In this document: in pieces, positions 54,229 through 55,103 of the stretch
How positions within the stretch are numbered: the stretch's first letter is position 1
Layout of the letters: each line of letters begins with the position of its first letter
The notes under the pieces: generated by a model
Seen by the model: the letters and a program-made list of their open reading frames with translations, nothing else
Told to the model about the DNA's origin: nothing
The model's database searches: none
Assembly (NCBI GenBank): GCA_021824065.1
Contig: JAKALU010000006.1
Span: 1-55,103, forward strand
DNA length: 55,103 nucleotides
Origin: Nitrospirota bacterium
Lineage (GTDB): Bacteria > Nitrospirota > Thermodesulfovibrionia > Thermodesulfovibrionales > UBA1546
Direction: 5' to 3'
Position numbers and translations under genes: made by a program

Positions 54229-54256
54229 TTGACTATAATATTAGAAATGTTATTAT
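54229..54256 (+). promoter_or_regulatory. Promoter upstream of the 6S/16S region
   Basis: TTGACT (54229-54234), 16 bases, TATTAT (54251-54256), both one mismatch from consensus, in an A+T-rich setting. It could drive the leader, 6S RNA and rRNA. Confidence 0.55.
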
Positions 54257-54307: not shown

Positions 54308-54360
54308 CAAGCGGTCTTTGAAAAACAGGCTATGCCGCTTGGCATGGCCTTTATTTTTCT
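54308..54360 (+). terminator. Terminator hairpin with competing upstream stem
   Basis: GGCTATGCC-GCTT-GGCATGGCC (54328-54349) followed by TTTATTTTTCT is a good intrinsic terminator. CAAGCGG (54308-54314) can instead pair with CCGCTTG (54335-54341), which would open the terminator stem, giving mutually exclusive folds. Confidence 0.6.
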
Positions 54361-54538
54361 CTGTGTTACCTTGGGGCAATGCGAGCTGAGGGAACAGCTA
54401 AAGTATGGGAGCAATGTGCAGTATGTAGTGATGCAAGCCCCAGGCGAAAGTGAGGGGAAGCCTAAGCAGCTGCCTGAGCACCCACTTTAAAAGAGCCTCA
54501 GATGAGCTCAAAACCTCAAGGTAATATGGAGAAATTTT
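54354..54538 (+). ncRNA. ssrS: Probable 6S RNA
   Basis: About 185 bases. The closing stem is TTTCTC + TTACCTTGGGG (54356-54376) paired with CCTCAAGGTAA + GAGAAA (54514-54534), with TGTG/TATG bulges. Inside, GAGC-TGAGG pairs with CCTCA...GCTC, a long bubble follows, AAAGT...GGG...GC pairs with GCACCCACTTT, and the apex is a CCCC...GGGG hairpin followed by GAAGCCTAAG. The GAAGCCT and GCACCCACTTT sequences match positions in E. coli 6S RNA by memory. 6S RNA mimics an open promoter and binds housekeeping RNA polymerase. Confidence 0.65.
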
Positions 54539-54549: not shown

Positions 54550-54593
54550 AAACTTTAAAGTAGGCCCCGTTCAGTTTTTGAGTTTTCCAAGTT

Positions 54594-55103
<510 letters not shown>

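Follow-up and report, generated by a model that had tools for sequence, protein, structure and literature searches.

Leader structure and 6S homology

What is the structured RNA encoded directly in front of 16S rRNA at the end of this Nitrospirota contig, and is it a 6S RNA whose production is tied to the rRNA operon itself? A sequence-only reading of the window, the whole 55,103-nucleotide stretch of DNA analysed here, had proposed a 6S RNA within the rRNA leader at 54354-54538. In a lowered-threshold Rfam scan, the 6S covariance model RF00013 matches 54355-54536 from end to end (model positions 1-187 of 187) with 42.0 bits and an E value of 3.3e-7, and our own model R1 places the RNA at 54356-54532, so the proposed boundaries were right to within a few bases. 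The curated cut-off of RF00013 is 46.4 bits, just above this score; an Rfam scan at the gathering threshold lists no 6S in the leader, and the lower threshold does. No other Rfam family comes close in score; low-threshold matches to RNase MRP, TCL6 and PrrF were dismissed as chance. An RF00013 search of the organism's own genome returned the canonical 6S and one chance match only, and missed the leader copy, probably through filter loss. Several orthologues at the same place exceed the cut-off, with 51.2 (G032), 48.7 (G020), 48.0 (G281) and 47.5 bits (G042). The 6S reading of the structure before 16S is thus supported by the full-length match and by these orthologues.

The region folds at -70.3 kcal/mol, compared with -51.9 +/- 4.1 for shuffled sequences (z -4.45; 0/200 shuffles equal it). 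Fold and covariation together give the rod shape of 6S RNA, with the long closing stem and large central bubble that the sequence-only reading had described, followed by an inner stem and a terminal arm. The two motifs it had named, GCACCCACTTT and GAAGCCT (54457-54463), are both in place, and the boxA-like site that it took as the end of the structure is the boxA TGTTCTTTGAAAA. Alignment to the Rfam and class consensus locates the 6S core motifs GUG.UGCA.GCC, GGAAGCCUAA and GGCACCCAC, and the core motifs of the terminal arm are kept across all three 6S classes described below.

Covariation was examined in 29 leader copies. Paired cells make up 91.8% of the total and 24/30 pairs have changed on both sides, giving 108 double-change cells as opposed to 31.5 +/- 6.2 in shuffles (0/500 as high) and 22-28 when the partner is slid by 1-3 columns. 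The helices so supported match those of 6S RNA: closing stem, inner GGGAGCC/GGCACCC stem and terminal arm. The shared fold is far beyond chance, and the structure is strongly supported by covariation. In the central bubble, GAGCCTCAGATGAGCTC and GAGCTGAGG are both conserved in the alignment, and an alternative pairing spotted by eye, in which they join across the bubble instead of GAGCCTCAGATGAGCTC forming its own hairpin, may act as an open/closed switch.

Table 1. Elements of the rRNA leader and their positions in the window
Feature	Positions	Strand	Basis
Promoter-like site, TTGACT, 16 bp, TATTAT, TG before the -10	54229-54256	+	Consensus scan 10/12; consensus match only
Possible antiterminator 5′ strand, CAAGCGGT	54308-54315	+	Complementary to GCCGCTTG (54334-54341)
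First boxA-like element, GGTCTTTGAAAAA, upstream of 6S	54313-54325	+	Sequence; upstream of 6S in many relatives
Terminator-like hairpin, AGGCTATGCC-GCTT-GGCATGGCCT, with U-rich tail	54327-54358	+	Scan; hairpin itself 54327-54350
6S RNA, probable paralogue, in rRNA leader	54355-54536	+	RF00013 42.0 bits; R1 159 bits
Closing stem, 5′ arm	54356-54376	+	MFE and centroid fold; 12/15 consensus pairs double-changed
Inner stem, 5′ strand, GGGAGC	54407-54412	+	Pairs with GCACCC; 97.1% of cells paired, 29 sequences
Terminal arm with 6S core motifs GUGAUGCAAGCCCC and GGGGAAGCCUAAGCA	54428-54468	+	Match to Rfam consensus GuGuGcAaGCC, gGGAAgCcuaAA
Inner stem, 3′ strand, GCACCCACTTT; opens 3′ side of central bubble	54478-54488	+	Sequence; Rfam GGCACCCACCU
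Central bubble, 3′ side, GAGCCTCAGATGAGCTC	54493-54509	+	Local hairpin or pairing with GAGCTGAGG (54383-54391)
Closing stem, 3′ arm	54514-54534	+	Same fold and covariation; partner of 54356-54376
Second boxA, TGTTCTTTGAAAA	54540-54552	+	Sequence; between 6S and 16S at nearly all homologous loci
Likely 16S processing stem, 5′ strand (GTAGGCCCCGTT)	54560-54571	+	Position by comparison with G026
16S rRNA, 5′ part	54594-55103	+	RF00177 484 bits; contig ends inside gene

Distribution of the leader 6S in Nitrospirota

The arrangement recurs in the rRNA operons of relatives among uncultured Nitrospirota bacteria, as the sequence-only reading had suggested checking. A DNA search of 60 relatives finds homologues in many, upstream of 16S and always in the order 6S, boxA, short spacer, 16S. 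Among 32 Nitrospirota leaders examined, 31 have 6S, then boxA, then a 16S start 42-176 nt past the 6S end; on the remaining one (L016) the contig stops before 16S. We scanned about 85,000 species genomes for the pattern CACCCACYT, CTTTGA and GAGTTTGATC at leader spacing and obtained 15 loci, 15/15 of them titled Nitrospirae or Nitrospira, two under the titles JdFR-86 and JdFR-88. These two belong to Thermodesulfovibrionales, and we take the window to come from that order as well. Because one range of spacings and one spelling of the motifs were covered, other forms may exist elsewhere.

Model R1, built from the 29 leader copies, was run on 296 Nitrospirota genomes. Scores of at least 97 bits occur in 34, of which 29 belong to the window's order (families f1, f3, f4, f6, f7, f8, f10 and f12), three to other lineages of the class (f16, f17 and f18) and two to another class (f21); since many of the high scorers were among its training sequences, R1 scores separate classes and are not independent proof. 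The two f21 copies (G079 and G101, 99-100 bits) are free-standing and not beside 16S, and lower-scoring copies beside 16S are found in G222 (78 bits) and G184 (71 bits). Canonical 6S RNAs of the order score about 33-63 bits, and canonical and third-class copies together reach up to 67. The window copy, with 159 bits as one of the training sequences and with 16S downstream, falls in the leader class.

A second 6S copy and a third class

The leader 6S is a second copy, as the same genome also has an ordinary 6S beside rny, on another contig (G000:C23:439-624, upstream of an ORF named rny by sequence), which scores 90.4 bits with RF00013. Within the first set of relatives, 61/61 genomes have at least one RF00013 match and 60 have one above the cut-off; leader copies score lower on the Rfam model than canonical copies. 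Both copies match RF00013 from end to end, and they share a closing stem, a central bubble, an inner GGG/CCC stem and the AAGCC and CACCCAC motifs. They differ in that the leader copy lies in an rRNA leader, has other closing-stem and bubble sequences and a lower Rfam score, and falls in a separate tree group. A tree of 80 copies places the canonical 6S RNAs in one group (support 91) and a third, standalone class in another (92). The leader copies are not monophyletic; together with the third class and two f21 copies they fall in a group with support 98. This tree, weak at 180 columns, says that the leader 6S probably did not arise by recent duplication of the canonical gene.

In G020 and G042, two genomes of one genus that are each scored as complete, RF00013 detects no 6S other than the rrn-adjacent copy, even at E up to 5. 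Unlike in the window's genome, no 6S is found in their rny neighbourhoods (L213 and L214), and in G020 rny and the next gene adjoin directly. Any 6S function retained in these genomes would be provided by the rrn-adjacent copy.

The third class of 6S-like RNAs in Nitrospirota is represented at L083 (2858-3034, minus strand), L084-L092, L094, L096, L097, L157-L159, L161 and L163. Several have a promoter-like site just upstream, and most are trailed by a domain of about 110 nt ending GGAGCCATA...TATGGCTCTTTT. At the Rfam gathering threshold six examples have no 6S match and a few others narrowly pass. The leader 6S and this class do not strictly exclude each other, as G045 and G050 have both.

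Elements around the 6S and the two-operon genomes

Upstream of the 6S, TTGACT-n16-TATTCT/TATTAT-type sites lie 90-130 nt before most of the homologous domains. In the window, a terminator-like hairpin stands just before the 6S, and its tail extends into the 5′ side of the 6S closing stem. Its loop can alternatively pair with a segment beside the first boxA, the two pairings being mutually exclusive (54308-54358), and this alternative partner suggests a predicted terminator/antiterminator choice upstream of 6S. In 11 hand-picked leaders, eight with 6S and three without, the hairpin has 98.2% of cells paired and 6/10 pairs double-changed, and the antiterminator pairing has 92.9% of cells paired and 4 double-changed pairs (shuffle mean 1.6); the pairing is missing in other leaders.

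Downstream, the 16S start lies 67 nt past the leader 6S, and a scan of the plus strand between the two in the window finds no terminator-like site. G020 and G042 have a second promoter-like site in this interval, so that transcription of rRNA does not necessarily include 6S.

Thirteen genomes have two assembled 16S starts (G017, G018, G020, G022, G024, G026, G037, G040, G045, G049, G051, G194 and G220), and in each exactly one operon has 6S; the other has a short leader and a different spacer. In G052 the copy is truncated or misassembled, and in the window's genome, G000, one 16S start is assembled. Two leader types, with 6S and short without it, can be seen at L171, L172, L176, L180, L186, L191, L193, L194, L196 and L197, and in the short ones the spacer that follows boxA is often different, such as AAGTGCGTAGCA where the other type has AAGTAGGCCCCGT.

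In an alternative reading, the 6S domain, standing between two boxA elements and past the terminator-like hairpin, acts in cis within the nascent rRNA transcript, with no need to accumulate free. It would bind or steer the elongating polymerase or the sigma factor released from it, or aid antitermination. Such a role would fit the fixed position between boxA elements, the terminator-like hairpin with its mutually exclusive pairing just upstream and the restriction to one of two operons. However, the conserved fold, central bubble and core motifs included, is that of a trans-acting 6S RNA, G020 and G042 have no other detected 6S, and a related standalone class exists; we regard a purely cis-acting domain as unlikely.

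A little less likely still is that the 6S copy has decayed, or that its structure is kept in the leader for the processing of rRNA or the folding of 16S, with no binding of polymerase. The case for this comes from the Rfam scores, which are below those of canonical copies, and from eight same-family leaders (L015, L017, L018, L021, L024, L025, L027 and L028) in which the 6S interior is gone and a short hairpin is left. As several same-family genomes keep an operon without the 6S interior, the leader 6S is dispensable and its loss tolerated. Against decay, conservation is among the highest in the core motifs, the central bubble and the inner stem, and covariation is strong across many families; a bare processing stem would have no use for these parts. 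The stem for 16S processing is, moreover, located elsewhere. In G026, a complete genome on a single contig, GGTAGATTCTGTC, between boxA and 16S, pairs perfectly with GACAGAATCTACC after 16S, and the 6S domain lies outside and 5′ of this stem. We therefore rejected the leader 6S as the 16S processing stem, the alternative named by the sequence-only reading, in which the region would pair with sequence after 16S. In the window, the partner of 54560-54571 would lie past the contig end. Adjacency of 6S and 16S as an assembly artefact has next to no probability: the window's contig does end inside 16S, a common break point, but the same order in independent assemblies and on the single contig of G026 refutes it.

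Leaders without the 6S interior (L015, L018, L025 and others) retain the outer arms, and the remnants in L015 and L018 are promoter-like (TTGACA ... GGTAGTAT or GGTAATAT), just before boxA.

A probable second 6S RNA made with rRNA

The leader RNA is probably a true second 6S, a paralogue of the rny-adjacent copy, that is co-transcribed with rRNA, cut from the leader and used as a polymerase decoy with feedback. Homology, fold, position, conservation and the presence of a canonical copy are direct observations, and we infer co-transcription, excision, RNA polymerase binding, discrete accumulation and feedback from them. In favour of the second 6S we count the full-length Rfam match, the orthologues above the cut-off, the 24/30 compensatory pairs, the 31/32 leaders, the single-contig position in G026, the Nitrospirota-only pattern (15/15), the downstream processing stem, the separate tree group of canonical copies, the upstream promoter-like site, the lack of a terminator-like site between 6S and 16S in the window and the sole 6S of G020 and G042. 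Counted against it are the window copy's 42.0 bits relative to the cut-off of 46.4, the interior losses and the inner promoter-like site of G020 and G042.

In the proposed mechanism, the rRNA promoter upstream would transcribe the leader 6S as part of pre-rRNA, and RNases would cut it out, as its long closing stem would allow, together with a 16S processing stem that is separate from it. The freed RNA would mimic an open promoter and occupy the housekeeping-sigma RNA polymerase holoenzyme, which would be released once RNA polymerase copies a short pRNA from 6S. With one 6S per rRNA transcript, the decoy supply would follow rRNA synthesis and restrain further initiation. A more specific version, in which the transcript of one rRNA operon passes the boxA/terminator switch, frees one 6S decoy and then yields rRNA, so that holoenzyme sequestration is hard-wired, is offered tentatively, as a possibility with less than even chances.

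6S and rRNA control are linked in Escherichia coli, as loss of 6S RNA alters rRNA synthesis in stationary phase; it falls, an effect opposite in sign to simple repression and ascribed to ppGpp (PMC2848244). Leader fragments of E. coli rRNA are short-lived, about 40 s (PMC2848244), so an excised leader 6S might not accumulate.

Second 6S RNAs are known from Bacillus, as 6S-1 and 6S-2 of B. subtilis and as tandem 6S genes in the B. cereus group (PMC8414754, PMC7726162). The leader copy resembles these in being a paralogue beside a main 6S. To our knowledge, the Bacillus RNAs are independent genes and not part of an rRNA operon. The Ms1 RNA of Actinobacteria is also 6S-like and acts on RNA polymerase (PMC9130861). 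Ms1 binds the core enzyme and is found by its own gene neighbourhood, in which the leader 6S differs from it. We know of no link between Ms1 and an rRNA operon. Leaders with boxA antitermination are a known system (PMC10250234). The Nitrospirota leader shares with known rRNA leaders, among them the rrnB leader of E. coli with its early attenuator, a boxA, a terminator-like hairpin and a leader-trailer processing stem, and is unlike them in that a whole RNA of the 6S family stands between two boxA elements. In the open-licence papers that we searched, a 6S RNA within an rRNA operon is nowhere described.

As Rfam scores leader copies near or below its cut-off, 6S annotation would change. 6S RNA sets the amount of polymerase available for initiation, and the largest customers of that polymerase are the rRNA operons; a 6S built into the rRNA leader ties both together through gene order alone, a simple and testable feedback circuit in which rRNA production should also produce a transcription brake. 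If the hard-wired version is true, growth would be under a stoichiometric feedback by RNA, and one genus would have no other source of 6S.
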